A DNA stretch of 64,000 nt from contig NZ_JAWLJU010000001.1 of assembly GCF_037120705.1 (NCBI RefSeq), positions 620,001 to 684,000 on the forward strand, given 5' to 3'. Under the pieces are notes generated by a model. The model was not told the origin of the DNA. It worked only from the letters and a program-made list of their open reading frames with translations, and did no database searches. The stretch comes from Pseudoalteromonas sp. UG3-2 (GTDB lineage: Bacteria > Pseudomonadota > Gammaproteobacteria > Enterobacterales > Alteromonadaceae). The stretch's first letter is position 1; the number at the start of each line of letters is the position of its first letter. Positions 11,722 through 57,018 of this stretch are shown here, piece after piece. The translations under genes and the position numbers were made by a program.

Positions 11722-11738
11722 CCTAACGTCTGATAAAA

Positions 11739-11768
11739 AAAGGGGGAGGAAGGAACGCCTCCCCCTTT
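11739..11768. terminator. Bidirectional terminator between the ABC-F and DUF4198 genes
   Basis: A perfect 11-base stem (AAAGGGGGAGG with CCTCCCCCTTT) and an eight-base loop. On the minus strand it is followed by seven Ts, so it is strongest for the leftward TonB receptor operon; on the plus strand it ends in TTT. Confidence 0.8.
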
Positions 11769-11857
11769 GGCACTTAGTGGCGTCTCTGTAATAACCACTA
11801 AACTGACGTAGCTTACGGCGACTGCTGTGCCGCTAGCTACTTTGGACGGTTACGGTA

Positions 11858-12685
11858 TTAAAGCGGTAATACCTCAAGTGTGGTGACATAACTGCCAACA
11901 CGCTTACTAGCAGGGGCTTGTGCGCGTTCATCTTGGTACTCAACTTCAAGCCAATACATCCCAGGTTGCGACAATGTCATGGTTACCTCACCATTGGCAT
12001 CCGCAGTGTATTTATTGGCCGAGGCCTTATCACGGTACTTTTCATCTTGGCGTACTAGGGTCATTTCAGCTCCCTTGGCCGCTTCTCCATCCATGGTGAA
12101 CTGTAAAGTAAAGGCTTCGCCAGTATATAAATCATTAGGGTGGCTAATGGGGTTAAGTTCCAATCCCTTACCTGTGGGTTTTAGAGCAGTTTGGTTAGGC
12201 GCGCCTAAGGTGACAAACACCTCCAGCCTTCTGGCGACATCGGTAACCTGTAAATCCTCTGCTGTTTTCGGCACTTGTTGATTAAAGTCAGCCAGCGTTG
12301 CCACTTTGCCACGACCTGGCCAATAACGCTTCTTGCCATCACTATCAGTCCAACGTGCCACTAGCGAGCGACTTTGATTGAAGACTTTATAGGTACCAGG
12401 CTGAGTGAGCTCTAGATCAAAGACACTGCGGTATTTCAACTTTGCTTTATTTTGCAGAGCCACGTTATTTCCCGAAGGAGATAGGGCAGTCAACCGCTCT
12501 ACAGGATAAGCGTAATGATCGGGATTAAAAATACCATTGGCAATTGCCGCGTCAAAGGTCACCCACTCACTGTCGCCAGATACCACCGTGGTGCTGGGTT
12601 TGATCCACACTCGGTGGGCTTCACTAAGTGGACTGTAGGCAGCGAGTGCAACTAAAACAGTAGAAACGAGTGATGAAATTTTCAA
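11858..12685 (-). CDS. DUF4198 periplasmic protein
   Basis: A 275-residue exported protein with a signal peptide ending near SEAHR (about residue 23). The mature start HRVWIKPSTTVVSGDSEWVTF and the later GEAFTLQFTMDGEAAKGAEMTL, a beta-sandwich domain, match DUF4198, which is often found with metal or iron uptake systems. It is the third gene of an operon with a TonB-dependent receptor and a PepSY/DUF2271 membrane protein, two bases from the latter, and so probably handles the imported metal or chelate in the periplasm. Confidence 0.75.
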   Translation of the reverse strand: MKISSLVSTVLVALAAYSPLSEAHRVWIKPSTTVVSGDSEWVTFDAAIANGIFNPDHYAYPVERLTALSPSGNNVALQNKAKLKYRSVFDLELTQPGTYKVFNQSRSLVARWTDSDGKKRYWPGRGKVATLADFNQQVPKTAEDLQVTDVARRLEVFVTLGAPNQTALKPTGKGLELNPISHPNDLYTGEAFTLQFTMDGEAAKGAEMTLVRQDEKYRDKASANKYTADANGEVTMTLSQPGMYWLEVEYQDERAQAPASKRVGSYVTTLEVLPL

Positions 12686-12687
12686 AA

Positions 12688-13791
12688 TTAGGGCTCCATA
12701 GTTAATATTATTGTGGCAAGCTCAGACTTACCTTCTGCAATCACAGTGACCGGTTTGGTGATCGGCAATGAGATAGGTAGCTTAATGACCTCGCGACCAC
12801 CCAGCTCACGGGCAGCTTCGACAAACAGGGTATAGTCACCGTTAGGCAGAGCCTTAAATTCCTCTTGCCACGGTGATAGATCTATTTTCGCCTTACCGGG
12901 CCGTCTGGTTGCGCCTGTGACACCGTCAATCGGTAGAGATAAGCTGCGGCCACTGCGACGCCACCATAAGCGCATATCTTTCAACCACTTTTCTCCCTCG
13001 CGCTGCGCTAGGTTAATGTCGTACCAAATGGCAATATCAACCACGCGGCGCTGTTTACTATTCGCTAGCCAAACGGCGACATAAGGAGGATGGTACTCCG
13101 CGACATTAAGACGCGGAATGTTCACTTCCAGCGTATCGGCTTTGGCATGAGCCGGAAACATCAACACCAAAGCCGGTAATACCAATCCTGCAGCCACCAG
13201 CGGCCAAGTCGACTTCCGGGCTCTGGAATGTTTATACAACAGCCATAACCCCGTTACTGAAAAAACCACACACGCTAGTGAAAAAACATCAATAAACATA
13301 CGCCATGCAAATCCTGTATTTCGTCCTTTATGAAGATCGTTGAGATAGGAAACCCAACCCCGGTCGGTTATTTCTTGATAAAACTCGCCACTGTCGAGGG
13401 CAACACTAAACCAACCATCGCCACCTGCACGCGGCATAGCAACATACAGCTCATAGTCACTCCACTGCAGCTGTTTTAGAGCAGGTAAGGTCGCGCCGGT
13501 TTGCGATTGATACCAGGACACAAAACTGTGCGGTAAGGTATTGTTTGCTGCCGATGCTTTTAATGCTGACAACAGCGCTTCCGGCACCACGGCTTCATGG
13601 GCCTGAGTATGAGGCTTGGCCTCAATCTCACTGGCGTGGTTCAAAGTGATCCCCGTCAGGGCAAATAGCAGCAAACCCACTAAGCAAACCGCTGAACTCA
13701 TCCAATGCCAAGTGCGCCAATCAAATAGCTTTTTCAGCCGTTTTTTTGGGCGCTTGGCTCGCTGACGTGAGGTCGTCATTAAAAGCTCCAT
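12688..13791 (-). CDS. PepSY-associated membrane protein with DUF2271 domain
   Basis: A 367-residue protein. An N-terminal membrane helix (about 29-50) carries the ALTGITLNHA motif of PepSY-associated TM proteins. A periplasmic part contains SYLNDLHKGRNTGFAWRMF, a second helix pair lies at about 165-215, and a C-terminal DUF2271 domain (about 220-355) includes YVAVWLANSKQRRVVDIAIW. Related proteins serve iron or haem uptake, sometimes as ferric reductases. It overlaps the end of the TonB receptor gene by 13 bases, so the two are coupled. A reductase role is inference from the operon and family. Confidence 0.8.
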   Translation of the reverse strand: MELLMTTSRQRAKRPKKRLKKLFDWRTWHWMSSAVCLVGLLLFALTGITLNHASEIEAKPHTQAHEAVVPEALLSALKASAANNTLPHSFVSWYQSQTGATLPALKQLQWSDYELYVAMPRAGGDGWFSVALDSGEFYQEITDRGWVSYLNDLHKGRNTGFAWRMFIDVFSLACVVFSVTGLWLLYKHSRARKSTWPLVAAGLVLPALVLMFPAHAKADTLEVNIPRLNVAEYHPPYVAVWLANSKQRRVVDIAIWYDINLAQREGEKWLKDMRLWWRRSGRSLSLPIDGVTGATRRPGKAKIDLSPWQEEFKALPNGDYTLFVEAARELGGREVIKLPISLPITKPVTVIAEGKSELATIILTMEP

Positions 13792-15773
13792 GCCAATGAG
13801 GCCCAGTAGCGACGACCGTCCTCAATGTAACCGTATTCCGCTTCTGTGATCTTTTCATCAAACAGGTTATACACCCCAACACCGAGTTTGATACTGCGGT
13901 TGAGCTGATAGTTGGCCCCCAGATCGGTTAAATTATAGGAAGGCGCAACTAAGCTACGCTGTGATGGCCCAGTCACAGGCTGACTTTCCTCGCCACGATA
14001 ATGGAAGCGCAGCCAGCTGCTTAAGGCATTGCTGTGTTGATAGTTCAATGAAGCTTGAAATAAATGCTTCGGCAACTGATTTAATGGGTTGCCAGCATAA
14101 GCACCGGTTTTTTGTTCCGAGTCGGTATAGGTGTAGTTGGCATTGAGTTTTAATTGCTTAGTTAACTGACCGGTAAAGCTGACTTCTCCCCCTTGGGTGG
14201 TGGCTTCATCGACATTGACATAAGTAGTTGGTAACGAACCAAATTCATTTGGGCCATCGGTGCACTTAGTTAACGGGCACGATACACGAGAAATCTTATC
14301 ATCGAATTCATTATAAAATACCGTCGCAGAGGCTGAGACACCGTCATTGAAGTCAACATACATGCCTAACTCGTAATTAAGCGACGTTTCTGGGTTTAGA
14401 TCTGGGTTGCCGTAAATGTTGCCGCCACGGCTTACCTGTCCCCATGCTGCGGTACTTTGCCTTAGGTTTGGTGCTCTAAACCCGCTTGATATGCCACCTT
14501 TTACGGTGACTCTATCTGACGCATTAAACACACCATATAAGCGTGGGCTAAGGTGACCACCAAAGTTACCATCTTTGTCATAGCGCAGTCCCATTGTCAG
14601 GGCAAAGGGCTCTACTAAACGCCATTCATCTTCAGCAAAAACCGACCACTGATCGTTATCAACTTGCTCTAGATCGCTGATCCGGTTACTGGTTTTGTCG
14701 CTTAGATCCTCTTTTAGATACGCCACACCAATAGAGCTGGTGTGCAGTTCACCCAGCGGCAGTGTCCACAACGATTGTAAGTTGGTGTTTTCAACCACCA
14801 TCTCACGAGATTTATTGTCAAACTGCTCATGCTTTAGGTAAGTTCGAGAGCTACCAAATGACCAATAACCATTGTGCGCCAGTGACACCGATTCACTGTC
14901 GTATTCGGTGGTGGCTGACTCAGGGCAACCGCGACGTCCACACGGTTCACCGGGTGCCAATGGGGCCACCGTCTTGCCTAATGTGGCATCTAGGGTTTGC
15001 GAGGCCATGCCGTAATCAAACAGCCACTCATGTTGCTCAGATGGGGTATAAGCCAACTTCACCTTTAGGGTGTCGGCATCACGGCCTCTAAAGCCGGATA
15101 CTAAGTCATCTTCATCTCGCTGAGTGGTCTGGCCGTAAACTTGTATACCTAAGGTGTCTTTTACCAAGGCGCCAGCGGTAAAAAAGTTTGCTTGGTAAAT
15201 ATTGCCAGAGCGACTGTCCTCTTGGCTGGTGGTATCAAGGCGGACCTCACCATGCCAGGCATCAGGCGTCTTTTTAGTAATAATATTGATCACCCCACCA
15301 ATGGCATCAGAGCCGTATAGAGATGACATCGGGCCGCGTATAACTTCAATGCGCTCAATCGCCGCAACAGGGGGTGTCCATGCGCCTTCCACGCCCGGAC
15401 CATCACTGTTGGGGCGAGTTTCACGGGAGTTTTGTCTCTGGCCATCCACCAAAATAAGGGTGTATTGGCTGCCCATGCCTCGTAGGCTGATATCCTCTCT
15501 GTCACCTCCACCGGTCACCACAACGCCAGGCACATCAGTCATTGCGTCAGTTAAGTCACGATAAAAACGTTGCTGTAATTCCTCTTGGTCGATAACACTG
15601 ATCGAGGCTGGAGCATTTTTTAACAGCTGTTCAAAACCAGAAGCCGAGACGACTATCACCTCTACCGCTTCTTTTGTGGGTGTTTTTACATCACCCTGAG
15701 CCAAGCTAGAACACGGCAATGCAGCTGCTATAGCTAAAGAAAGTGGCGCCAAACTACGACAGGCCATCAACAT
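13779..15773 (-). CDS. TonB-dependent outer-membrane receptor (iron or siderophore type)
   Basis: About 664 residues, starting at the ATG at 15773, which has GGAGG seven bases upstream; a longer in-frame ATG at 15821 lies inside the Fur-box region and is unlikely. It has a signal peptide (to about LAQG), a plug domain with PASISVIDQEEL, IERIEVIRGPMSSLYGSDAIGGVINI and the usual barrel, ending in the C-terminal aromatic F (SLAWSF). The plug wording is that of ferric-siderophore or colicin-I-type receptors. The Fur-like box just upstream and the downstream PepSY/DUF2271 and DUF4198 genes support iron uptake. The ligand is unknown. Confidence 0.9.
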   Translation of the reverse strand: MLMACRSLAPLSLAIAAALPCSSLAQGDVKTPTKEAVEVIVVSASGFEQLLKNAPASISVIDQEELQQRFYRDLTDAMTDVPGVVVTGGGDREDISLRGMGSQYTLILVDGQRQNSRETRPNSDGPGVEGAWTPPVAAIERIEVIRGPMSSLYGSDAIGGVINIITKKTPDAWHGEVRLDTTSQEDSRSGNIYQANFFTAGALVKDTLGIQVYGQTTQRDEDDLVSGFRGRDADTLKVKLAYTPSEQHEWLFDYGMASQTLDATLGKTVAPLAPGEPCGRRGCPESATTEYDSESVSLAHNGYWSFGSSRTYLKHEQFDNKSREMVVENTNLQSLWTLPLGELHTSSIGVAYLKEDLSDKTSNRISDLEQVDNDQWSVFAEDEWRLVEPFALTMGLRYDKDGNFGGHLSPRLYGVFNASDRVTVKGGISSGFRAPNLRQSTAAWGQVSRGGNIYGNPDLNPETSLNYELGMYVDFNDGVSASATVFYNEFDDKISRVSCPLTKCTDGPNEFGSLPTTYVNVDEATTQGGEVSFTGQLTKQLKLNANYTYTDSEQKTGAYAGNPLNQLPKHLFQASLNYQHSNALSSWLRFHYRGEESQPVTGPSQRSLVAPSYNLTDLGANYQLNRSIKLGVGVYNLFDEKITEAEYGYIEDGRRYWASLAWSF

Positions 15774-38241: not shown

Positions 38242-41200
38242 TTAATTTTTTATCAACGCCAGCATTTGCGATTCGTCGAACTGGTTTAATTTCACTCCAG
38301 CGTCGGCAAATAGAGCATCAACTAAGGCTTGTTTGTCTCTTTGCATCTTGAAAACTTTTTCTTCTATGGAGCCTGCCATCAGTAGCTTATAGACAAATAC
38401 CGGTTTATCTTGGCCAATTCGATAAGCGCGATCCGTTGCTTGATTTTCAACAGCTGGGTTCCACCAGGGATCAAAGTGGATCACCGTATCGGCCTGCGTT
38501 AAATTTAACCCCGTACCACCAGCTTTTAGGCTGATCAGAAATATATTACAACGACCTTCGGTAAAAGCGGCAATGGCATTATCGCGCTGCCGAGTTTGTC
38601 CTGTGAGCATAGTGTATTTTAGTGCCTGCTCCTGACACTGCTGCGCAATTAACTCTAAGACACTGGTAAACTGGCTAAAAATAATAATTTTCCGGCCTTC
38701 TTTTAGTAACGTTGGCAGATGTTGCGCCAGCCATTCAAATTTCGCCCCACGGTACTCGGTTGCGGTTTTGTCCACTAACTGAGGATGACAGCAAATTTGT
38801 CTCAGCTTGAGCAAAGCGTCTAAAAAGGCCAGCTTGCTGCGCTCAACTCCCTGCTCATGGAATAAAGTAACCAGTTTATTTTCCACTTGCCGTTGCACAC
38901 TTTGATACAGTGCATGCTGGGATTCAGAGAACTCCAGCTCTTTTACCAGTTCGGTTTTGTTTGGCAGCTCTTGCACCACTTCAGATTTCGTCCGGCGCAA
39001 AATAAATGGCGCGATAAGACTACGTAACTCTCTCGCTTTAGCGCTGTCTTGCTCTTTTTCAATAGGAATTTGAAAATGCTGTTTAAACTGTTGCTTAGTA
39101 CCCAAAACATCGGGCATAACAAAGTCCAACAAGGACTTTAGCTCCAATAAATTGTTTTCCACTGGCGTACCACTTAAGCACAGTTTAAACCGCGCCGCTA
39201 AACTTTTAACGCATTTTGAGATTTGCGCCGCTTCGTTTTTAATGTATTGCGCTTCATCTAATACAATGGAATCAAACGCCAAGTTTTTATAAAAGCTAGC
39301 ATCTCTTTTCAGCAGCGGATAAGTGGTAAGAATAAATTTCGCCCCTTGCACCTCATTTAGCGCTTTATCACGATGTGCACCATGAATAATCGTTAGCGGT
39401 AAATGCGGCGCAAAACGCTTAAATTCATCACGCCAATTACCCACTAAACTGGTTGGGCATACGATTAAGCTCGGTTGCGATACTAGGGTATTATGCTGAG
39501 CAATAAAATAGGCAATCACCTGCAAGGTTTTGCCCAGCCCCATGTCATCGGCAAGAATACCACCGAGCTGATGGCGATTAAGAAACTTCAGCCAATTTAC
39601 TCCCTGTATTTGGTAATCACGCAAAGTAAAGTTTTGCCCTTCGCTGGCCGGAATAACTTGTTGCTCTTTAATGGGCTGCTCAATTTCAGCTAAATAATCG
39701 AGCAGCTTGGGATCGTCAGACACCGCCTCAAGGTGGTCCAGCTGGAACAGCTGCTTAGCGTATGACAAAGGAAATTTAAATTGCCCGCTCGAAAGGTAAT
39801 AACTAAAACGGGCTTTTAACCCCATCAGGGCATCATATACGGCCTTAGGTAAGGCATAGAATTGCTCACCAATGCAAACATAATGATAGTCATGTGCCAG
39901 GTTATTGAGCTCGTGGCTCTCAGACTTCTCCCAGTTAAGAGTGATGGGTTTGTCATCAAACATCACTTTACCTAGCACATGATGCTGCTTATCACGCTTG
40001 AGGTAGATTTTCACCGTAGGCGTAATTACTTGACTGTCACCGTGCAACTCATCAACCACCCAGCGCTTAACTTGGAGATATGGCCGCACTTCTTGATTGA
40101 ACCAATGAATGGATACGCCATCGTTACTTGGCAGTGAAAAGGTATCTCCCTCATGGCTGAAGCCTAAGCCGCTGAGCAGTTGTTCACAGCGCGCTTTGTG
40201 TTTGCTCTTGGCAGATTTTGCTAATGGCTCAATTCGAAAGCCTGCCGGTCCTGCTTTATCTAACTTTATCAGTCGTGCCACCTGAGCTTGCTGCTGGGCA
40301 AGCTGCATTAATCCTTGCGGCGCAGCGATGACATCGTCATTAAAGATATCCTGAAAACGTGCCATCACTTGCTCTATTTTTTCTTCGCTGACGGCGGGCA
40401 TGGTATGTAAATGGGCAATTTCTTGAGCCGTTAAATCGGTTTCAATGCGCCCGACAACAAGCTTATCGGTATCAAGATAAACTGGGGGGTCGGTTTTTAT
40501 TAAACGCCATTGTTCCACCCCGGCTAGGCGGCTACGTAGCTGATACTGGCTGCCTTGTTGATGCCAGTAGAAGTCTAGACTTTGTTTGTGACCAAATAGC
40601 AGAGGCTGGCGGTCGTTTTGATAGTAACAACGATGGCTGTGAATAAGTTGCGTTAAGGCATTAAAGCCCCAGCTGCCAAATAATTCAAAATGACCTGGGG
40701 TATTTTGTGAGCGGATCCAACTGAATAATCGAAAATCACTTTCCAGCAGTCCTGAAGGCGCCACCTGACTGTTCAATTGTTGCTCAGTTAAGGCTCTACC
40801 CAAAGGATACTGACCGTCTGGACGGTTAGGTGACACCTTGGGGTTGACCAGAATTTCATTGGCCCGAGGCTCCAAAACAAACAGTAACACGTTATCAGCA
40901 TCTTGATGCTCTATTGACTGTAACTGTGCTAATTCATTAAACCAGTCATTGACTAAAAATGCCTCACCGAAACCGCCAGAGTGTTCAATTTTGAGTTTTA
41001 ATAATACCGCAGCAATATGCCGGCATTTGGGATTATTGGAACATGAACAGTTGGCTTCAACGTGCGCAGATCCTTGTTTGTGGGTAATTTTGATGTGCTG
41101 GGTAAAAGTATTGCCATAGTTACCTAAGACTTGGGCGTCGATTTGGGCAAAATTGTCGCTGTGATGTAAGTAACAAACCTGATCGTCTTGCAGATACTCT

Positions 41201-41334
41201 TTGGCCTTATTTAATAAAGCCGAGTTAAAGTACTGTCTAAGAAAGCGCTCAGACAATGGAAACTGGTTCGCTTGCTCTTGTTTGATCTCTTCAAATAAGG
41301 CGAAAAGTTGCTCTTTTGATAACTGCGATGACAT
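38242..41334 (-). CDS. SNF2-family helicase with SWIM zinc finger
   Basis: About 1030 residues from the ATG at 41334; an in-frame GTG three codons earlier is weaker. A SWIM zinc finger lies at about 90-115 (CSCSNNPKCRHIAAVL). The SNF2 ATPase core has motif I DDMGLGKTLQ near residue 590, motif II DEAQYIKN near 690, LSGTPVENNLLELKSLLDF, and the helicase C domain with SLKAGGTGLNLTQADTVIHFDPWWNPAVENQATDRAYRIGQ. These RapA-like DNA translocases are common in gammaproteobacteria, with roles in DNA or nucleoprotein remodelling. It lies just beyond parB on the same strand but is separated from it by an inverted repeat. Confidence 0.92.
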   Translation of the reverse strand: MSSQLSKEQLFALFEEIKQEQANQFPLSERFLRQYFNSALLNKAKEYLQDDQVCYLHHSDNFAQIDAQVLGNYGNTFTQHIKITHKQGSAHVEANCSCSNNPKCRHIAAVLLKLKIEHSGGFGEAFLVNDWFNELAQLQSIEHQDADNVLLFVLEPRANEILVNPKVSPNRPDGQYPLGRALTEQQLNSQVAPSGLLESDFRLFSWIRSQNTPGHFELFGSWGFNALTQLIHSHRCYYQNDRQPLLFGHKQSLDFYWHQQGSQYQLRSRLAGVEQWRLIKTDPPVYLDTDKLVVGRIETDLTAQEIAHLHTMPAVSEEKIEQVMARFQDIFNDDVIAAPQGLMQLAQQQAQVARLIKLDKAGPAGFRIEPLAKSAKSKHKARCEQLLSGLGFSHEGDTFSLPSNDGVSIHWFNQEVRPYLQVKRWVVDELHGDSQVITPTVKIYLKRDKQHHVLGKVMFDDKPITLNWEKSESHELNNLAHDYHYVCIGEQFYALPKAVYDALMGLKARFSYYLSSGQFKFPLSYAKQLFQLDHLEAVSDDPKLLDYLAEIEQPIKEQQVIPASEGQNFTLRDYQIQGVNWLKFLNRHQLGGILADDMGLGKTLQVIAYFIAQHNTLVSQPSLIVCPTSLVGNWRDEFKRFAPHLPLTIIHGAHRDKALNEVQGAKFILTTYPLLKRDASFYKNLAFDSIVLDEAQYIKNEAAQISKCVKSLAARFKLCLSGTPVENNLLELKSLLDFVMPDVLGTKQQFKQHFQIPIEKEQDSAKARELRSLIAPFILRRTKSEVVQELPNKTELVKELEFSESQHALYQSVQRQVENKLVTLFHEQGVERSKLAFLDALLKLRQICCHPQLVDKTATEYRGAKFEWLAQHLPTLLKEGRKIIIFSQFTSVLELIAQQCQEQALKYTMLTGQTRQRDNAIAAFTEGRCNIFLISLKAGGTGLNLTQADTVIHFDPWWNPAVENQATDRAYRIGQDKPVFVYKLLMAGSIEEKVFKMQRDKQALVDALFADAGVKLNQFDESQMLALIKN

Positions 41335-41453
41335 TAGTAGCACGTAGACTGAAAACTAAAGAACCAGTATATGAAATTCGGGTTTTGAGCTAAAGAGAGA
41401 AATGCGAGAAAAAGGGTAAAAATAAACTGGTTGGAGCTCAAGTGTTGCTAAAT

Positions 41454-41497: not shown

Positions 41498-42460
41498 TTA
41501 ATTGTAACTACCGAGCAGCTTTTGCAGCTGTTCTAAACGCTTATCGGTTAAGACGCGATTATCAATTTTAACCGTAATATCACCGCTTTTAAGATTGCGC
41601 TGCAGCTTGACGTAATCGTTCTCAAGGATCGATTCAACTCGACTGCTGTTTTCACCAAAGGTGGTCAAAAATTTAGTGATCTGCAGTGCGCGCTTTTCGT
41701 CGCTCATCGATTCATTCATAAAGCTTTGCTCTGGAAGCGCGCGTACTCGCTCAGCAAAGTTTTCAGGTGAATCAGACTTGGCGTTAATCAACTTTTTCGC
41801 TGCTTCTCGGCCTAAATGATTGGCGGTAGGGTATAACTTCAAAACATCAACCGGAATGCTTTCAAAGGCTTTAATGGCATCAGCGATGGCGGTATGTGAT
41901 ACGCCTTCGACAGCAGCGATTTCACGGTAAGATCCTTTTTGTCCCTGCGCTACTAGACGCTGCTTTGTAGCCGCATACGCCTGACCTAATTCCCATAAGC
42001 TTGGAGCAATGTATTGATCCGAAGACACAGCCAAGACTTTGGCGTCTTCATCACTAAAGTCCGCTGAGCTTAGAACGACATAATCGGCTTTTGCCAGCAT
42101 ACAGGCTTTTCTGCGACGCGAGCCTGACAACACTTGTAACTTGCCATTATGCTCCCAACACAACGCAGGATGAAGGTTGCGCTTATCCTTTTCAATTGCA
42201 GGCAATATGTCTGCGACGGCTTTTTCACCAAGCAAGGTTTGCTCTCTGCGGTTTTGACCATACACACAGGTACGAGACTCTATTTCAGAGAAAGGAATGA
42301 TCTGACAGGTTAAAACAATGGTTTTATTAGGATCGCTTGGTGCGGGCATGGTAACCACATCACCGACTTTTGCCTGATCCAGTAGATCATCTAAACTGCT
42401 TCCTTCCACAGCAGTGGCGAAAGGATCCATACGGGTATCATTTTTACGTTTTCTAGCCAT
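41498..42460 (-). CDS. parB: Plasmid/chromid partition protein ParB
   Basis: A 320-residue centromere-binding protein: ParB/Srx-like N-terminal part with the CVYGQNRREQT motif (the CTP/phosphate-binding box reads G-x-x-R-R-x-Q), then SGSRRRKAC, a helix-turn-helix at about 170-195 (SYREIAAVEGVSHTAIADAIK) and a C-terminal dimerisation region. Length and layout fit P1-type (type Ia) ParB of low-copy plasmids and secondary chromosomes. It is encoded 13 bases after parA. No clear set of parS palindromes was identified. Confidence 0.9.
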   Translation of the reverse strand: MARKRKNDTRMDPFATAVEGSSLDDLLDQAKVGDVVTMPAPSDPNKTIVLTCQIIPFSEIESRTCVYGQNRREQTLLGEKAVADILPAIEKDKRNLHPALCWEHNGKLQVLSGSRRRKACMLAKADYVVLSSADFSDEDAKVLAVSSDQYIAPSLWELGQAYAATKQRLVAQGQKGSYREIAAVEGVSHTAIADAIKAFESIPVDVLKLYPTANHLGREAAKKLINAKSDSPENFAERVRALPEQSFMNESMSDEKRALQITKFLTTFGENSSRVESILENDYVKLQRNLKSGDITVKIDNRVLTDKRLEQLQKLLGSYN

Positions 42461-42473
42461 TTTTTAACCTTTA

Positions 42474-43706
42474 TTATTCTGCTAGTGAAGATTGCGTTGA
42501 CGGCCAGTTAGAGCGGATCAGCATCTCTAATTCATCAACCACATCTTTGATGTTTTCCTGTGCTTTTAATAGCGCTTCTCTACTGGCTAAGCTATCAGAA
42601 GTTTTTTGATCAAAAATAGTGTTAAACGAGGATGAACTGGCGGTGATTGCAGAGCTATGGTTAATTGGGTAGCTCATTACTTGGCGTCCAAACGCACTTC
42701 TTACATCTTTGACAATATCGCGTTGCGAGTGATTACCTTTTACATAATTGGTCACTAGAAATTGCATAAAGTCCCAACCTTCATGACCGAGTGCAGCAAC
42801 GGTATGGTAAATTTCCCCCAAACGCTTGAGGTATTTGTTGTTGGCATCAAAGTCTACGGCTTCCGGGTGAACCGGTATTAGCATCGCGGTTGAAGCCATT
42901 AAGGCGTTGTAGAACATGAAGTTTAACGACGGTGCCGTATCGACCAAAATAATGTCGAACTGATCCGCTACCGGGTCGATGACTTTTTCCTTAAGCTTAT
43001 GGTAATGCCTGGTTTTTTCATAGCTTGAGCTTTCTTTTAATTCCGTTGCGGTTTCATGCTCAAAGTAAAAGTCATCCATGCCAGAGGGCAGTACTCGAAT
43101 ATTAGGGATATGAGTGGTTTGAAATGAATTAGACACTAAATCTTGCCAGGTCTCACCCTCATCTAGTTCGATGCAGTCACGCATTAGATCGCCCACAGTA
43201 ATGGGTTCGTGCTCTTTAGCAGGAAAGAAACTGGAGGACGATCCTTGCGGATCTAGATCAATGATACCAATTCGATAGCGTTTAATATTGGTAGTGGCCA
43301 ACGCGGCTGCAATATTAACCAAGCTGGTAGTTTTACCACAACCACCTTTTAGACTGTTGATGACAATAACTTGAAGCTTATCATCTGCTTTTCTTTGATC
43401 AGCCTCGACACCAAGCACTTCAGCCATGGCAAAAATATTGGCTAATGTATAAGCATAGTGACCATTGGCACCTTTTTTAATATTGATATCATCGAAATCG
43501 CCTTGATCATGACGACGTTTCAAAGTCCGGTTATTAACACCAAGCAGGTCGGCCGCGGCTTTTTGCGTGTAAGTTCTTAGTTCCTTATCTTCAGTTTTTA
43601 GGTGTGCCCTATAATGTTGGATACGACCTGCTAAAGATTTTTCTGCAACTTCTGCCGTTGCTTTTAACAAACGGTAAGTTGATAGCGCGTTGTTATTTAT
43701 CGACAT
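42474..43706 (-). CDS. parA: Partition ATPase ParA, type Ia
   Basis: About 410 residues from the ATG at 43706 (AAAGGA eight bases upstream); an ATG two codons earlier has poor spacing. The N-terminal region (about 50-85) holds a helix-turn-helix (YTQKAAADLLGVNNRTLKRRH), which marks type Ia ParA proteins that repress their own operon. The deviant Walker A KGGCGKTTSLVNIAAALA follows, with DLDPQGSSS and LVDTAPSLNFM further on. It moves ParB-bound DNA. It is divergent from rep across the origin. This set is typical of low-copy replicons such as P1 and Vibrio chromosome 2. Confidence 0.93.
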   Translation of the reverse strand: MSINNNALSTYRLLKATAEVAEKSLAGRIQHYRAHLKTEDKELRTYTQKAAADLLGVNNRTLKRRHDQGDFDDINIKKGANGHYAYTLANIFAMAEVLGVEADQRKADDKLQVIVINSLKGGCGKTTSLVNIAAALATTNIKRYRIGIIDLDPQGSSSSFFPAKEHEPITVGDLMRDCIELDEGETWQDLVSNSFQTTHIPNIRVLPSGMDDFYFEHETATELKESSSYEKTRHYHKLKEKVIDPVADQFDIILVDTAPSLNFMFYNALMASTAMLIPVHPEAVDFDANNKYLKRLGEIYHTVAALGHEGWDFMQFLVTNYVKGNHSQRDIVKDVRSAFGRQVMSYPINHSSAITASSSSFNTIFDQKTSDSLASREALLKAQENIKDVVDELEMLIRSNWPSTQSSLAE

Positions 43707-43864
43707 ACACATTATCCTTTATTTGATGCCGTTTATTATAATGTCCATATATTTACCTGTAAACACAAAAAAATAAAGACATTTATTGATTACCTTGCCT
43801 CTAAGTATAAATAAAGAAGTTTAGATATGGTTAAATATATAGGTATTAAAGGCTAAGGTACCAA

Positions 43865-44344
43865 GATCTTGTTTTTACTGATTGTTTTATATGAATATTT
43901 TTTAAAATACCAGATCGCTTTTTTACCTAGTTAAGATCCGATCTTTTATAACTAACAGATCACCTTTTTACTAAGCCATATTTCATTTTGCTATATATAA
44001 ACAGTTTATACACAGGGTTATCCACTTCTGTGTTCGCTGAGATCAAAATATTACTAAGTAATATCAGTGAGTTATTCACACTCAGCAGATGATCTACCGA
44101 TGTTCACTAGATAAGGATCTGATCTCTACTTAGAAGAGATCAGATCTTTACTAATCAGAAAGCTATTTTTCCACAGCTTCCTTGCGATGACCACTAAATT
44201 CAGAGGCTTACAGCCTGTAAAAAGGGCTGGTTAACTGTAAAGATCTCTCTTAGTTAGTAAAATTTTGATCTCTAAGCCTCACACAGTTAGTATAATCATG
44301 ATCTCGATAAAAAAGTGTTCTCAGATCACTTTTTTACTAACTTT
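43865..44344. repeat. Rep iterons with GATC
   Basis: Elements with GATC followed by TTTTTACTAA or variants. On the plus strand they start at 43865 (GATCTTGTTTTTACTGA), 43913 (GATCGCTTTTTTACCTAG), 43940 (GATCTTTTATAACTAAC), 43958 (GATCACCTTTTTACTAAG), 44041 (GATCAAAATATTACTAAG), 44143 (GATCTTTACTAATC) and 44324 (GATCACTTTTTTACTAAC). One inverted copy lies at about 44251-44272. The last lies 66 bases before the rep start, where it may also act in rep autoregulation. Confidence 0.75.
44006..44175. other. DnaA boxes in the origin
   Basis: Four matches to TTATNCACA: TTATACACA (44006-44014), TTATCCACT (44018-44026, one mismatch), TTATTCACA (44072-44080) and TTTTCCACA (44167-44175, one mismatch). 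All are on the plus strand. Confidence 0.75.
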
Positions 44345-44409
44345 AATAATTAACTTTTTTCGTTGAATATGTTGTTATTAAGCGTCACGATTTTTTGGAA
44401 GTAAAAACA

Positions 44410-45621
44410 ATGAGCCGAAAGGTGAACATTTCTGTAGACAACCTGCCAGATTCACTGCGTGGACAGATCCATGGAGTTGAAAGTGCAATCGATAACGAAA
44501 GCTTGGCATTGTTCACTGATAATAAAGATGTTCGAGTATCTCTTGAAACTGCACATGGGTTAAGAGCCTACTCAAATACGTTTAATCATTATGACCTTTG
44601 GGGTCGTTTTGTTCGTTCTGGACATAAAAAACTGGCGTTGGAAGATGCTCCGAAGAAAACAATCGTAACCAGAAAAATATCAGAAAAAGTTGATGGTATT
44701 CTTTACGAAGGTGAAATTAAGATAACACCGGCTGTAGTAAGCACTAAAAAAGATGGTGATGAAGAAGAATTCTTAGTTTGGCCGTCTGATAGAGAAGAAA
44801 AAGTTGAACGAGCTCTCATTCGTTTAGCTTCAAAAGGAAAAATCGTAAAAATTAATTTTAAGTCCGGTATTCAATACGCGGTTATTTTTTCCATGAATGA
44901 ACTGGCGCAAGAACTAAAAGCGGTTGGTCAATCAATGCCATATCCGCAAATCAAAGAATCGTTGGAAGCGTTGCAAGGTTCAAAACTCTCTTTTAAATAC
45001 ACTGCGACAGACACTAAAAACCCAGATATTGATGACTCGTTTTATGAGTCGAACATGAACTTTTTATCCTCATTGCATTTTAGTGGTAAAAAAGGGCAGG
45101 GCGGTAACATCAAATGCGTCGCTTGTTTAAATGCGTTTGTTCATAATATGATCGATAACCTTGAATATAAGGGTTACTACTTTAATAGCGCGCAAGAATT
45201 GAAACGAGGTTTATCTCGTTGGATGATGCTTCGCCTTTATCACCTTTGGCGTTATGCGGCACCGGGTAAAACTTATCACTTCAGGCTCATTTCCATTATG
45301 GAAAAATACGGCTCAATTTATGCGGATGACAAAATTACCGATAATAAGTTAAAAGCATTGCGTCGTGATATGACCACAACGATGAAAGATTTAATAGAAA
45401 AAGGGGCAATCTCAGAATATAACATTTCCAATGTTAAAGATGAGAAAACCGGTAAAATTATTGACTACGTCTATGAAATGCATCCATCGGCACAGTTTTG
45501 TGATGAAATTTTGGCATTGAACAAACACCATAAACGCATTGAGATTCAAGGCGGAAAGCGGATAGTTGAAAATGCCGAAGTCATTGACGAAGACACCCTC
45601 GAAGAAATTGTAAAAAAATAA
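44410..45621 (+). CDS. Plasmid-type replication initiator (Rep)
   Basis: About 403 residues from the ATG at 44410 with GGAAG eight bases upstream; an in-frame TTG five codons earlier overlaps that site. The protein is basic and shows two winged-helix-like segments: about 135-200 (ERALIRLASKGKIVKI, then PYPQIKESLEALQGSKLSF) and about 260-330 (RWMMLRLYHLWRYAAPG, then LRRDMTTTMKDLIEKG). It resembles RepA-type initiators of large plasmids and Pseudoalteromonas chromids; I recognise the type, not an exact relative. It should bind the iterons upstream and open the origin with DnaA. Its promoter region holds an iteron, so autoregulation is likely. Confidence 0.82.
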   Translation: MSRKVNISVDNLPDSLRGQIHGVESAIDNESLALFTDNKDVRVSLETAHGLRAYSNTFNHYDLWGRFVRSGHKKLALEDAPKKTIVTRKISEKVDGILYEGEIKITPAVVSTKKDGDEEEFLVWPSDREEKVERALIRLASKGKIVKINFKSGIQYAVIFSMNELAQELKAVGQSMPYPQIKESLEALQGSKLSFKYTATDTKNPDIDDSFYESNMNFLSSLHFSGKKGQGGNIKCVACLNAFVHNMIDNLEYKGYYFNSAQELKRGLSRWMMLRLYHLWRYAAPGKTYHFRLISIMEKYGSIYADDKITDNKLKALRRDMTTTMKDLIEKGAISEYNISNVKDEKTGKIIDYVYEMHPSAQFCDEILALNKHHKRIEIQGGKRIVENAEVIDEDTLEEIVKK

Positions 45622-45735: not shown

Positions 45736-46959
45736 TCTATCTTATCTTTATCATTCCTTCCGAGTTAATACCTACTGACCAATAAGTATTGTTATTCGTG
45801 TAAAAATCGCGGATCACTGAACTGCCAAACATTGCGAAGCAGAGTGACTTTGCTGTTTTATTTCAATTATGGATCATAGCCAATTGTCATCCATTTTTGG
45901 GTTATTTGAAGCAGTAAGTTTGCTGCAAGTGGTGGACAACTCAAGACAAAATTACCGACTTGCTTGTATAAATGAGAGTAATACTTTGCCAACAAGACAT
46001 GAGAGCTGTGTTACCGACAAAAGTTTCTTCTCTCAAACCTTCTTCATGAGGCAAATGAGTATCAAAGCAATATCAACAGTAAGGTTTTGGCTTTTATTGA
46101 GGTAAAACAGAATAACGAAATTGCTCGACTCGCGGAGTATGACTAAGAAATAAAAATATGATTGTGTTCTACTTTTGACACTCATAGCAGGCATTATTAT
46201 TTTTTTATCTGAGGGAGTAGCAAAGGCGTTAAACGTTTCTTACTTAAAATAACTTACTTGCAGAATGACTTGTTCTAGATGCAAGGGAGCTGACTGGCAA
46301 AATTATTCTTGTCAGTAACTCGATGACGAAATTAAGCAAACTGCTATTAGGTATTGCTCTACTGACTAAATGCATTGCATTTAAAGTCAGTTAGTACCAA
46401 CAAACCAATGCTTTGCTTTTGAGTTTATTTGCGTTCATTTTATGAGACTAATTAGTCTAACCTCGATTTCCTAAGTTTATAAATTATTAGCTATTAATAC
46501 TCTTTATTTTAAAGTAAGTGTGTACTCACTATAAAATATGCTATACCATAACAGCAATATTTATGAAGCAGATGTTGCCACACAACTTTATAATATTTAT
46601 TCGCTGTAACGCTAAAAAATACACCTTAGTTCAGTTCTGTGAGTGGCCACCTGAAAATAAGTTTATTTTTAAGTTGTTTGAAAACTTGCTAATGGTGGAG
46701 ATTCTTTTGCTATTTATGTTTTGGCATATATACAATAGCTTGAAGCAGTGTAACTAATGGCCATTATGTCTTAAATGCTCAAAGACAAGGGAGTATATGA
46801 TGATTCATACCGATATAAGTATGTAAGTGCTAACTATAAAAAGATGCTTTAGACTTACTCGTTAATACGACTCATATATAATCAACACCTATACTCGCTT
46901 TTATAACTAGAGGAATCTAACAGCAACCACTACGAGAGAGTTTGCATACAGCAAGATGT
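45736..46959. other. Gene-poor stretch between rep and tus
   Basis: About 1.2 kb, strongly AT-rich. Two short plus-strand frames (78 codons at 45869, 79 codons at 46518) have poor composition, no ribosome site and no recognised domain. The stretch looks like decayed or non-coding sequence rather than genes. Confidence 0.5.
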
Positions 46960-46974
46960 AGAACACATCATACT
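46960..46974 (-). other. Ter-like replication fork barrier, minus orientation
   Basis: Minus strand reads AGTATGATGTGTTCT. By E. coli polarity (the AGTATG end is non-permissive) this copy should stop forks moving leftward, that is, the fork arriving after a trip round the replicon. It lies 77 bases past the tus stop codon and is the only copy seen in this orientation. Confidence 0.8.
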
Positions 46975-47050
46975 TATATTGATAAAGCATATGATTATGT
47001 TAAATCGTATGCTTGAACAGGTTATCAGACCATAGGTGTTAAAAATGCTT

Positions 47051-47914
47051 CTAAAAACGCTCGAGGTAGATGCGGTCAACTAAGAAATTATATTGGCGTT
47101 TTCTTGGATGGCTTTCATTTTGAGTATAATTACTGAGCTCGCCAAGTTTGGTCTCTGGATTCGGATTCAAAATGATAAAAGGCAATGCCGCACTCACATG
47201 GTAGCGATTTTGGGCTGAGAACCGAACATTCACTTCTGGGGTTACGCGAGTGGGGCGACGTATCCGTAATTTGGTATCTTCGGCTAAACTGGCAACTCGG
47301 TATTTTTCTTGTTCAACTAACTGTAACCATTGCTCTTGGTCTATCCTTCTTGGGTTAGCATAGTTAGATGAACGGTTTAGCATTTCAAGTGCGACCTTTT
47401 TGCTTAATACTTTTGTTGCGTGCTTTTTCATCCATGTAAACCTAACGGAGTAAGGGGTTTCTGATTCAAAGTGGATCTTTCGATATGCGGCTAAAGTAAG
47501 TAAGTCGGGAACGGCAGCATGGACGGCCTCAAATCGGGCATCGTTATTTTCTATTTCTAAAATTGCTTTTTTAAATTCATCTTTCGCTTTATTCACGGCT
47601 TGAAGTCGAGACTTTATATTGTTGTTTCGATCGTTAATTAGCAGCAAACCAGGGTAACGTTGCACTAATTTTCCGCTTGCTTTGTCTTGCAAAAATAAAT
47701 CTTGATATGCTTGCAAACAAAACTTCAATGCTTGTTCACCTTCATACTTTTTAACTTGGATTTCTTCAGGAGCTACTTTTTCATCTTCTTTTGTTGCTTT
47801 GGGTAAAGCATAAAAAGACGCTTTTTTTACGTCGGCATTTTTGATTTCAGCAACGAGTTGATTAATATGTGTGTTTAAAATATCAAAGGTTGAACGTATA
47901 GAAAATGTTGTCAT
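47051..47914 (-). CDS. tus: Replication terminator protein Tus
   Basis: A 287-residue basic protein; E. coli Tus has 309. Similarity extends along the length: FYALPKATKEDE against FSLPEVKKEDE, RFEAVHAAVPDLLTLAAYR against RFEWVHRHLPGLITLNAYR, VRFTWMKKH against LRFGWANKH, and TKLRIRRPTRVTPEVNVRF against AKLKIKRPVKVQPIARVWY. The E. coli residues that hold the flipped Ter cytosine (Phe140, His144, Gly149, Leu150) correspond here to Phe128, His132, Asp137 and Leu138, so three of four are kept. Tus binds Ter DNA and stops replication forks from one side only. Ter-like sites lie on both flanks, one of them in the gene's own leader, five bases before the ATG, which implies autorepression. Confidence 0.92.
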   Translation of the reverse strand: MTTFSIRSTFDILNTHINQLVAEIKNADVKKASFYALPKATKEDEKVAPEEIQVKKYEGEQALKFCLQAYQDLFLQDKASGKLVQRYPGLLLINDRNNNIKSRLQAVNKAKDEFKKAILEIENNDARFEAVHAAVPDLLTLAAYRKIHFESETPYSVRFTWMKKHATKVLSKKVALEMLNRSSNYANPRRIDQEQWLQLVEQEKYRVASLAEDTKLRIRRPTRVTPEVNVRFSAQNRYHVSAALPFIILNPNPETKLGELSNYTQNESHPRKRQYNFLVDRIYLERF

Positions 47915-47918
47915 ACTT

Positions 47919-47935
47919 GTATGATGTGTTCTTTT
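47919..47935 (+). other. Ter-like fork barrier in the tus leader
   Basis: GTATGATGTGTTCTTTT on the plus strand, ending five bases before the (leftward) tus start codon. It should stop rightward forks and is the first such barrier met by a fork leaving the origin to the right. Tus bound here would also cover the tus ribosome site or promoter. Confidence 0.82.
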
Positions 47936-48078
47936 AATAAGACAATTATATCAAATTTTCCGTATTTAGGGGGTAGTTAATCGTTTAATTATCGAAATCA
48001 TTAAGGTTTACTTATGCACTGCTTTTTGAATATCTACCTAACTATAGCTTCAATTTAAAATTCTTTAAGAATTAAGTG

Positions 48079-48094
48079 GTATGATGTGTTCTTT
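48079..48094 (+). other. Ter-like fork barrier, plus orientation
   Basis: GTATGATGTGTTCTTT, 160 bases beyond the tus-leader copy and in the same orientation. Predicted to stop rightward forks as a second barrier. Confidence 0.8.
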
Positions 48095-48663
48095 ATTCTC
48101 ACGCGATGATAAGCCAATCCTTAAAGGCTCGCAATCGCTTAATGCAAATATTCATATCTGCCACAGTTGGATACCAAAAAAACGATATCGGACATAGTGG
48201 TTAAGAAGATATAGTAAGACAGCTTGTCTCGCTGCGATTAGTTAACGCGATTCTAAATAGGGTATAGACCTTGCAATTTTTAAATACAAAAAGCCTGGTC
48301 AATTCAGTACCTTTTAATCTTCGGGGGTAATAACAACAATAGGATTTGCATTGGGGGTTATTAATCAGCAAAACTCCCATAGGTCTTACAACAATACTTC
48401 CAACAAGGCAGAAGCTACAAAAGCGCAGAATCACTTAAGAAATAAAAGCCCAAGAACTTTTTAAGGATCTGCGCTAATACATTGAAATGGCTTCAGGCGA
48501 TACGACGTAAAACATCCACTTACTGCTACTTATTTGCTCAAAGCCCGTTGCTTTTTTAAACTCAGATTAACTAAGCATGCATATTTAAATCGCAAAGCGA
48601 ACCTTTGCTTTTGTCAAATGTATAAAAAACAAATGACATACTAGCTATAATATAAAGTTAAAT

Positions 48664-48679
48664 AGTATGATGTGTTCTT
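48664..48679 (+). other. Ter-like fork barrier, plus orientation
   Basis: AGTATGATGTGTTCTT, about 85 bases before the DAHP synthase start. A third barrier against rightward forks. It sits in the likely promoter or leader region of the gene, so Tus could also affect its transcription. Confidence 0.8.
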
Positions 48680-51112: not shown

Positions 51113-53488
51113 GTGCAAGACTACGTTCTCTGGTATCAAGAGTTAGGTATGCAAGACGTACCTCGAGTTGGTGGTAAAAACGCTTCTCTAGGTGAAATGA
51201 TATCTAACCTTGCTAACGCTGGTGTACAAGTGCCAGGTGGATTCGCTACAACCGCTGAAGCATTTAATGAGTTCCTTGAACAATCAGGGCTCAATGAAAA
51301 AATCCACAGTATTTTAGATTCCCTCGATGTTGACGATGTCAACGAACTGGCCAAAGTCGGCGCCCAAATACGTCAATGGGTCATCGACACACCTTTCCAA
51401 CCAGAACTAGACGCAGCAATTAAAGACGCCTATCAGCAACTTCACGGTGATGCTAACCAAGATGTGTCATTCGCAGTTCGCTCCTCAGCCACCGCAGAAG
51501 ACATGCCTGACGCCTCCTTCGCAGGCCAACAAGAAACCTTTTTGAATGTTCGTGGTATCGATGCCGTTATGGTAGCGATTAAACACGTTTTCGCATCACT
51601 CTTTAATGACCGTGCAATTTCATATCGTGTTCACCAAGGTTATGACCACCGTGGTGTAGCACTTTCTGCAGGTATTCAGCGCATGGTTCGTTCTGATAAG
51701 GCCGCTTCTGGAGTCATGTTCTCTATTGATACAGAATCTGGTTTTGAGGACGTGGTTTTTGTCACCTCGAGCTATGGCTTAGGTGAAATGGTAGTACAGG
51801 GCGCCGTTAACCCGGATGAGTTTTATGTTCATAAGCCAACGCTTGCCAATGCCAAACCCGCGGTGTTAAAACGCAATATTGGTTCAAAAGCCATTCAAAT
51901 GATTTACTCAAGCGATGAGTCGCACGGTAAACAAGTTGAGATTGTGGATGTTGACTCTGCACTTTCAAACCGCTTCTCAATCACTGATGCTGAAGTAGAA
52001 GAGTTGGCAAAACAAGCGGTAATCATCGAAAAGCATTATGGTCGTCCAATGGACATCGAGTGGGCTAAAGATGGCAATGACGGTAAGCTTTACATCGTTC
52101 AGGCTCGTCCAGAAACCGTTCGCTCTAACGAAGACGCTAACGTCATGGAGCGTTTCCAGCTTAAACAGAAATCCAACGTTATTGCCGAAGGCCGTGCCAT
52201 TGGCCACAAAATCGGTAGCGGTGTTGTCAAAGTGTTGAGCTCGATTGATGAAATGGACTCAGTTAAACCTGGCGATGTATTGGTTACTGATATGACCGAC
52301 CCTGATTGGGAACCTATCATGAAACGCGCCTCTGCTATTGTAACTAATCGCGGCGGCCGTACTTGTCATGCTGCAATTATAGCCAGAGAGCTTGGCATTC
52401 CAGCCGTTGTAGGTTGTGGTAATGCTACGGATTTAATCACTAACGGTACACAAGTTACGGTATCGTGTTCAGAGGGTGACACAGGTTACATTTACGAGGG
52501 TGAACTTGAGTTTGACGTGATTTCTTCACGCATTGACTCTATGCCAGACATTCCCATGAAGATCATGATGAACGTCGGTAACCCAGACAGAGCATTCGAC
52601 TTTGCCAAGCTACCTCATGCCGGTATTGGCTTAGCGCGTCTTGAATTTATCATCAACAGAATGATTGGTATTCACCCCAAAGCACTGTTACATTTTGATA
52701 AACAAGACGCTGCGTTGCAGGCCGAAATAACAGACATGATTGCCGGTTATGATTCGCCTGTTGAATTCTACATCAATAAACTGGTTGAAGGCATTGCCAC
52801 CTTAGGTGCTTCTTTTGCACCAGAGCGTGTTATTGTGCGTATGTCCGACTTTAAGTCGAACGAATACGCCAACCTGGTAGGTGGTCAACAGTTCGAGCCG
52901 GAAGAAGAAAACCCAATGATTGGTTTCCGTGGCGCATCACGTTATATCTCTAAAGACTTTAGAGAATGTTTTGCTCTCGAGTGTGAAGCCATCAAACGTG
53001 TTCGCAATGACATGGGTTTGACCAATGTCGAAATCATGATCCCGTTCGTGCGCACATTAGAAGAAGCCGCTCAAGTCATCCAATTACTTGAAGAACACGG
53101 TCTAAAACGTGGTGAAAATGGCTTAAAAGTAATTATGATGTGCGAACTGCCATCGAATTGCTTATTAGCGGAAGAGTTCCTTGAGTATTTCGATGGCTTC
53201 TCTATTGGCTCGAACGATTTAACTCAGCTAACTCTTGGCCTTGATAGGGATTCTGGCTTAATCGCACATTTATTCGATGAGCGCAATCCTGCGATTAAAA
53301 AGCTACTGTCAATGGCGATTCAAACTGCAAAAGCCAAAGGTAAGTACGTTGGTATTTGTGGTCAAGGCCCTTCTGATCACGAAGACTTTGCAGCCTGGTT
53401 GGTAGAACAAGGTATTGATTCGGTCTCACTCAATCCAGATACGGTATTAGAGACTTGGTTATACCTAGCAGAGAAATTTAAAGCATAA
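51113..53488 (+). CDS. ppsA: Phosphoenolpyruvate synthase
   Basis: A 791-residue enzyme starting at a GTG (GGAGAC upstream). Order: PEP/pyruvate-binding ATP-grasp domain (about 5-345; [39 protein letters not shown]), the phosphohistidine swivel domain with [14 protein letters not shown] (catalytic His419), and a TIM-barrel PEP-utilising domain (about 480-785; [19 protein letters not shown]). It converts pyruvate, ATP and water to PEP, AMP and phosphate, for gluconeogenesis and for feeding PEP to aromatic synthesis. It is divergent from ppsR and ends in a strong terminator. Confidence 0.97.
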
Positions 53489-57000: not shown

Positions 57001-57018
57001 AGTATGATGTGTTCTTTT
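57001..57018 (+). other. Outlying Ter-like fork barrier, plus orientation
   Basis: AGTATGATGTGTTCTTTT, 8.3 kb beyond the nearest other copy and in the same orientation as the three near tus. It lies in the 430-base gap between ydiJ and the response-regulator gene. Predicted to stop rightward forks that slip past the first three. The rest of this gap is AT-rich and shows no gene. Confidence 0.78.

Follow-up and report, generated by a model that had tools for sequence, protein, structure and literature searches.

The chromid of Pseudoalteromonas sp. UG3-2 carries a tus gene close to its predicted origin of replication, accompanied by copies of a 15-mer, GTATGATGTGTTCTT, which, judging from its sequence, is almost certainly the Ter site of the genus. 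We propose that this origin-proximal Tus/Ter barrier imposes one-way replication on the chromid by halting the second of two forks; from the arrangement of the sites we regard this as likely. That the chromid replicates in one direction, leftward, is in itself very probable from its strand bias. The candidate sites make the role of ter on the chromid directly testable, and a likely mechanism is offered for one-way replication at chromosome scale.

The genome consists of two contigs, the chromid (C1, 812,891 bp) and the main chromosome (C2, 3,349,174 bp, with dnaA at C2:2382582). The whole stretch of DNA analysed here, 64,000 bp in length (C1:620001-684000), is called the window. Between 41.5 and 57.0 kb of the window, the order is parB2, parA2, the origin region, repA, a 1.4-kb gap, tus on the minus strand and then aroG/ppsR/ppsA/ydiJ. 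The last four names are taken in part from matching gene order in an annotated relative. The features, in window positions, are:

41498..42460, minus strand: parB2 (NF010252 90.6 bits, TIGR00180 50.4 bits, both under their cut-offs)
42474..43712, minus strand: parA2 (AAA_31, 92.3 bits)
43713..44394, no strand: predicted ori2, the 682-bp parA-repA gap with iterons
44395..45621, plus strand: repA, predicted chromid initiator (82.9% identity to its P. piratica counterpart)
46959..46973, minus strand: predicted Ter, GTATGATGTGTTCTA, last base changed (1 mismatch), facing the incoming leftward fork
47051..47914, minus strand: tus homologue, 287 aa (PF05472, E 1.6e-78, 264.2 bits against a cut-off of 22, residues 6-284)
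47919..47933, plus strand: predicted Ter, exact GTATGATGTGTTCTT, lying upstream of tus at 4 bp from its ATG and predicted to be the first to block the rightward fork
48079..48093, plus strand: predicted Ter, exact GTATGATGTGTTCTT, second predicted barrier to the rightward fork
48665..48679, plus strand: predicted Ter, exact GTATGATGTGTTCTT, third predicted barrier to the rightward fork
51113..53488, plus strand: ppsA, terminus-side marker, named by gene order in the annotated relative
57002..57016, plus strand: predicted Ter, exact GTATGATGTGTTCTT, fourth and outer predicted barrier to the rightward fork

The predicted ori2 contains iterons of the form AGATCA-N6-TACTAA in both orientations, 15 GATC motifs and two DnaA-box-like sites, TTATACACA and TTATTCACA. 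Replication from repA and the adjoining ori2 has been shown for P. spongiae and P. tunicata (PMC7858055). A large helicase-like gene (38242-41343) adjoins parB2 in the window. Its counterpart in the annotated relative is a DEAD/DEAH helicase, and the origin block of that relative, with the helicase-like gene and parB2, additionally contains rmuC.

The preliminary description of this DNA had claimed a tus homologue, and the PF05472 profile match, which spans the full protein, bears this out. In a phmmer comparison, the protein matches the E. coli Tus chain with an E value of 3.8e-28, at 30% identity. It misses the cut-offs of both NCBIfam equivalogs (TIGR02648, 132.8 of 178.3 bits; NF002810, 249.5 of 323 bits) and is a Tus homologue beyond these curated families. 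The pocket of E. coli Tus that locks C6 of Ter comprises F140 and H144, and also I79 and G149. In alignment with ten Pseudoalteromonas proteins, F140, H144 and the neighbouring R139 (E. coli numbering) are conserved in all ten, I79 in none and G149 in one; the window protein has L75 and D137 at the latter two positions. Four further residues of E. coli Tus, Q250, Q252, V234 and Q237, have site-contact roles. At the positions of Q250 and Q252 all ten proteins have H and S, respectively, and V234 and Q237 also differ in the aligned proteins. The gene itself was found in 107 of the 108 genomes of the genus. More distant tus homologues were seen on the third contigs of four genomes (G005:C3, G007:C3, G013:C3 and G037:C3), and the plasmid record of P. 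translucida TAC125 (NZ_MN400773.1) has its own, more distant tus homologue.

Five copies of the repeat around tus had been described at the outset. These stand, four of them being exact and on the plus strand, with two corrections: the outer copy starts at 57002 instead of 57001, and the minus copy starts at 46959 and has one mismatch. When up to 3 mismatches are allowed, the window contains 6 matches; shuffled versions have 1.86 on average, and 2 of 100 shuffles reach 6. It is therefore the exact copies that stand out. All five copies contain the GTATG-TGT core. Directly before the 15-mer, the copies at 46959, 48665 and 57002 have A; the copy at 47919 has T in this place and the one at 48079 has G. 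The match of AGTATGATGT to E. coli Ter at nine of ten positions, initially given for the repeat, holds for three of the five copies and fails for two. Elsewhere in the genome, exact GTATGATGTGTTCTT occurs only at C2:611933 (minus) and C2:634875 (plus). With 7 copies at no more than 1 mismatch in 4.16 Mb, all in consistent polarity, the scatter without orientation bias that would have spoken against a terminator site is absent.

Across the genus, the exact 15-mer is present in 106 of the 108 genomes (it is absent from G055 and G095), and the same 15-mer read backward, used as a control, in none of the 108. Outside the genus, the exact 15-mer is missing from all 147 genomes of the order that were searched, which include 9 from the same family. 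All of the 30 tus loci fetched first have copies within 1.5 kb upstream of tus. In Ter, C6, the partner of G6, locks into Tus, and both the G at position 6 and the GTATG-TGT core are strict. We tallied distinct sites with up to 2 mismatches at tus loci. In those of the barrier class, positions 3 and 5-13 of the 15-mer are near-invariant (99-100%), and the base matching Ter G6 is G in 333/333 distinct sites of the barrier class and 76/76 of the other class. The first half of E. coli Ter, AGTATGTTGTAACTAA, is common with the genus site and the second is not, the 3' half being GTTCTT in the window site and AACTAA in E. coli. This difference in the second half may be why Xie et al. (2021, PMC7858055), who used the E. 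coli ter consensus to look for sites around the place where ter was expected in P. tunicata, found none.

Which face of Ter halts forks is established background. The polarity of E. coli had been assumed for the repeat, and site orientation in E. coli K-12 agrees with it, with TerA (minus, 1341748) below dif (1590750) and TerC (plus, 1609161) and TerB (plus, 1684230) above. E. coli-type dif with up to 3 mismatches gave no match in the UG3-2 genome. A genus dif pattern was derived from the dif candidate inside the chromosomal Ter pair, and with it dif, and Ter at no more than 1 mismatch, were located in 32 few-contig genomes. We used 57 of the 59 dif matches; the two left out are second matches with 3 mismatches (G005:C2:771139 and G107:C2:133601). 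Both Ter and dif1 were located on 27 main chromosomes. These have 54 Ter sites, and all 54 show the E. coli trap polarity, one of them (G023, 1 mismatch, 1.46 Mb from dif1) probably by chance. The full order of minus site, dif1 and plus site is present on 23 of these chromosomes, and 4 are one-sided. Two Ter-bearing chromosomes (G055 and G102) gave no dif1, and three (G044, G061 and G099) have no main-chromosome Ter at up to 1 mismatch. In UG3-2, dif1 (C2:621931) lies within the 23-kb pair C2:611933 (minus) / 634875 (plus), 47% of the way round from dnaA. The polarity seen on the main chromosomes is independent of the chromid and is what is expected of a polar terminator site. A single-contig genome without tus (G003:C1) has a Ter pair, 2287512 (minus, 1 mismatch) and 2342679 (plus), around its dif at 2312578; either the assembly is incomplete or the sites are relics after tus loss. 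A TTATGTTAAA stretch between tus and repA, found in 30 of the 30 first loci, was not accepted as dif. A TTATGTTAAAT match at window position 46995, beside the minus Ter, was dropped as a candidate for dif2, which the genus pattern places at C1:767491.

On the chromids, the same sites are arranged around the origin. Among 123 tus loci, turned so that tus reads forward, 121 have repA, and in all of these repA, hence ori2, is on the right; 2 lack repA. Ter lies within 30 kb of tus on 29 of the 31 tus-bearing chromids, and of the sites so placed 99 face the ori2 fork that crosses tus and 17 are reversed. This count excludes nine chromid Ter matches whose distance to tus exceeds 30 kb (3 in G044, 2 each in G099 and G107, 1 each in G098 and G073); the one in G073 is truly about 11 kb from tus, across the contig end. 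When the loci are reduced to 90 non-redundant ones (tus DNA less than 97% identical), 86 have Ter, and each of these 86 has at least one barrier-facing site. In total, the non-redundant loci hold 245 barrier-facing and 53 opposing sites. As the genomes are related, neither these counts nor the others across genomes are independent. Each opposing site has a barrier-facing site further out, with no violation of this order. Where dif2 was located, it lies past the innermost barrier site as seen from ori2 (27 of 27 chromids; for G061, G073 and G086 the distance runs over the contig end). G041 has one outer barrier site past dif2. In UG3-2, dif2 lies 100 kb past the innermost barrier site.

The composition of the chromid points to a single leftward fork. 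Plain GC skew is negative in 39 of 41 20-kb intervals of C1, as for such a fork, and positive in 2; in 4-kb bins at 660-720 kb it is mixed. The bias at 4-fold sites, corrected for gene strand, is negative in 21 of 21 40-kb intervals, in one of them by just -0.002. We also scored eight segments near the trap. Six are negative, one remained unscored and one, 663.8-667.9 kb, is positive, and this is the segment from ori2 to the first plus Ter. It comprises two genes with 94 sites, repA (+0.111, 54 sites) and tus (-0.450, 40 sites). The opposite sign of this segment is the trace expected of a short second fork halted at Ter, seen here in few sites. Across loci, repA agrees with this, its bias being +0.039 on chromids taken as one-way (84 loci) and +0.057 on those taken as two-way (6 loci of 4 genomes); for tus the two modes do not match, with -0.144 and +0.022 (the latter from 6 loci of 4 genomes), respectively. 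The Tus homology, the Ter identity of the repeat, its polarity and the one-way leftward replication put forward in the preliminary description find support in the conservation and polarity of sites across the genus, in the dif1 traps of the main chromosomes, in the strand bias of the whole chromid and in the chromids without origin-proximal Ter described below.

We suggest the following course of events. RepA would fire ori2 (43.7-44.4 kb) in both directions. The rightward fork would cross repA and tus, pass the minus Ter at 46959 via its permissive side and, by analogy with E. coli, be halted at 47919, about 3.5 kb out, with 48079, 48665 and 57002 as backups. Meanwhile, the leftward fork would copy the remainder of the 813-kb circle, come back past the plus sites, which it would meet on their permissive side, and join the halted rightward fork between 46959 and 47919. 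As a backstop, the minus site at 46959 would keep the returning fork out of ori2. Given the layout around dif1, the same Tus presumably serves an ordinary trap on the main chromosome as well.

Chromids reported or predicted to replicate in two directions allow a comparison. G044 is P. piratica OCN003, and its chromid of 1,618,489 bp is chromosome II (PMC4299895). This strain is listed as bidirectional on the basis of skew, not depth (PMC7858055). G044 and G099 are the two exceptions among the 31 tus-bearing chromids, with no Ter near tus even at 3 mismatches (20 and 12 kb covered, respectively), and Ter is likewise absent at tus in the drafts P1-9 and G4, which have similar tus loci. In G044, Ter sites at 825064 (minus) and 926045 (plus) enclose dif2 (862568), the antipode of ori2 being at about 888 kb; a third exact Ter, 304186 (minus), turns its permissive face toward the outgoing fork. 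In G099, 737390 (minus) and 849851 (plus, 1 mismatch) enclose dif2 (819264), with the antipode at about 799 kb. The gene-corrected bias of G044 is positive in 10 of 11 samples at 100-870 kb; of the 12 samples from 880 kb onward around the circle to 20 kb, 11 are negative. It flips between 870 and 900 kb, within the trap at 825-926 kb; plain skew flips at about 800-815 kb, slightly outside. The initiator looks unchanged in these relatives, since RepA is 83% identical and the iterons are common to one-way and two-way chromids.

The terminus-side marker ppsA is far from tus wherever dif2 is far from tus. It is at most about 7 kb from tus in G000, G005, G007 and G045. In G044 it lies 21 kb outside the plus Ter, with dif2 85 kb away; in G099 it lies 22 kb beyond the minus Ter, and its distance to dif2 is 104 kb. 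In G044, aroG still adjoins tus. By gene position, the terminus neighbourhood is split from the origin in these two genomes. The position of Ter across the genus fits the chromids known or predicted to be one-way or two-way. The mode of a chromid correlates with the position of its Ter cluster, and a causal dependence on that position is likely.

One genome departs from this pattern. On G061:C2, exact barrier-facing Ter sites (150762 and 151298) are found at tus, and dif2 (1057938) and ppsA (1062645) lie about 410 kb from tus. Its plain GC skew looked two-way, but the gene-strand-corrected bias is mixed, which makes the genome ambiguous. G061 is possibly an evolutionary intermediate between the two modes, or an exception. 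Because it pairs origin-proximal Ter with a distant dif2 and mixed bias, the position of Ter alone may not fix the mode.

As an alternative, initiation itself might be one-way, with RepA loading a single leftward fork and Tus/Ter just ending the round and preventing over-replication. Theta plasmids are mostly one-way, and Xie et al. left one versus two initiating forks undecided (both PMC7858055). A one-fork replicon, however, needs sites that face the returning fork, yet the majority face the second fork from ori2 (the 99 against 17 and 245 against 53 given above), and the site facing the returning fork is frequently absent. From the coordinates, the minus site would, without a second fork, leave about 2.6 kb next to ori2 uncopied. 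Further, RepA and the iterons are conserved in the two-way relatives, and the bias between ori2 and Ter (94 4-fold sites) is opposite to that of the remaining chromid. We consider one-fork initiation unlikely. Much less probable still is that the chromid replicates in two directions, its skew being accidental and its Ter sites relics. G061, with its combination of origin-proximal Ter and distant dif2, would suit such an account, but 39 of 41 plain and 21 of 21 corrected intervals share their sign, the site cores are near-invariant, and published depth profiles show one-way replication in P. tunicata, in a further seven strains of the genus (PMC7858055) and in Chr2 of P. translucida TAC125 (PMC13342612). 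Finally, we give hardly any credence to the sites being mere operators, for tus autoregulation or for some other protein that binds DNA. It is true that the start of tus is 4 bp from one copy, that most loci have sites directly upstream of tus and that E. coli TerB itself lies 29 bases upstream of tus, yet copies occur up to about 10 kb from tus and fixed-polarity pairs surround dif1 on another replicon.

Returning to the two-forked scheme with an origin-proximal barrier, we lean, with some reserve, towards extending it to the genus. Initiation would everywhere be two-forked, and the mode would be switched by where the Ter cluster lies with respect to ori2. A Tus roadblock near the origin would cancel one fork, and movement of the Ter and dif2 neighbourhood to the antipode would make a replicon of plasmid type behave like a chromosome; G061 would stand in between. 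This suggests a simple route from a plasmid-like replicon to two-way replication.

One-way replication of a Pseudoalteromonas small chromosome had been mentioned as a published observation, and the report is real: in the measurements of Xie et al. (2021), the chromids of P. tunicata and of seven further strains replicated one way, and the authors describe this as the first time that such replication was demonstrated by experiment for a bacterial chromosome (PMC7858055). P. translucida Chr2 likewise gave a single depth slope (PMC13342612). Galli (2019) noted that tus adjoins the chromid origin (PMC6549158), an R1-like system was suggested for the chromid (PMC8347550, PMC10331603), and in a figure of a 2023 review a question mark accompanies the ter site of the chromid (PMC10331603). 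The chromid of strain BSW20308 has been called one-way (PMC8496264); we find Ter sites in the order minus, minus, plus upstream of its tus. Among open-licence PMC papers, judged by titles, opening lines of abstracts and selected passages, no report of these Ter sites was found. Our chromids share with those of Xie et al. the genus, the ori2-repA-tus block and the (here predicted) one-way mode, and a blocked second fork was among the two options of these authors (PMC7858055). The present analysis adds candidate sites with their polarity, and proposes a mode switch linked to Ter.

The closest parallel in layout is plasmid R1, where Tus acts at terRL/terRR, an opposed ter pair by the origin, so that one fork is blocked early and the other circles (PMC10331603). 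In contrast to R1, the replicon here is a chromid of 813 kb that carries a tus of its own. Its barrier copies are several and redundant, the 3' half of its Ter is different, and this Ter additionally frames dif1 of the main chromosome. With the chromosomal trap of E. coli the system has in common a PF05472 protein, the GTATG-TGT core, the '-, dif, +' layout and Ter adjoining tus. It differs in Tus, at 30% identity, in the site (GTATGATGTGTTCTT versus GTATGTTGTAACTAA in E. coli), and in the place of the chromid barriers, which are at the origin, whereas those of E. coli are opposite it. Dickeya paradisiaca has a chromosomal fork trap of type I (Toft et al., cited in PMC10331603), which that review places between the traps of R1-like plasmids and the E. 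coli type. We liken it to ours by description alone, its trap being chromosomal and the present one lying by a chromid origin. Taken as a whole, the arrangement likely represents R1 plasmid logic at chromosome scale; what would be new is the Ter sequence and the natural comparison of one-way with two-way chromids.

Some variation among the sites deserves mention. The site that opposes the barrier class is often absent or a variant, position 4 being A in 42% of the sites of this class. Where an opposing site lies 21-50 bp upstream of tus, it is often GTAAGATGTGTTCTT (for example L010, 1461), perhaps a weaker site tuned for autoregulation. With a looser core pattern, one mismatch against control gave 17 versus 9 matches in G044, 11 versus 7 in G099 and 6 versus 14 in G061; being near control level in some genomes, this pattern was used solely for rows of exact cores. 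Such rows of Ter-like [ATC]TATGATGTGTTCTT lie between tus and repA in G062:C1, G095 (L057), L159 and L169, all in barrier orientation, and single [ATC]TATGATGTGTTCTT sites occur in G052, G106, L145 and L154. On G007:C2 (L061), a 182-bp unit is repeated 11.2 times between tus and repA (11548-14075) and holds 11 Ter-like cores, also in barrier orientation.
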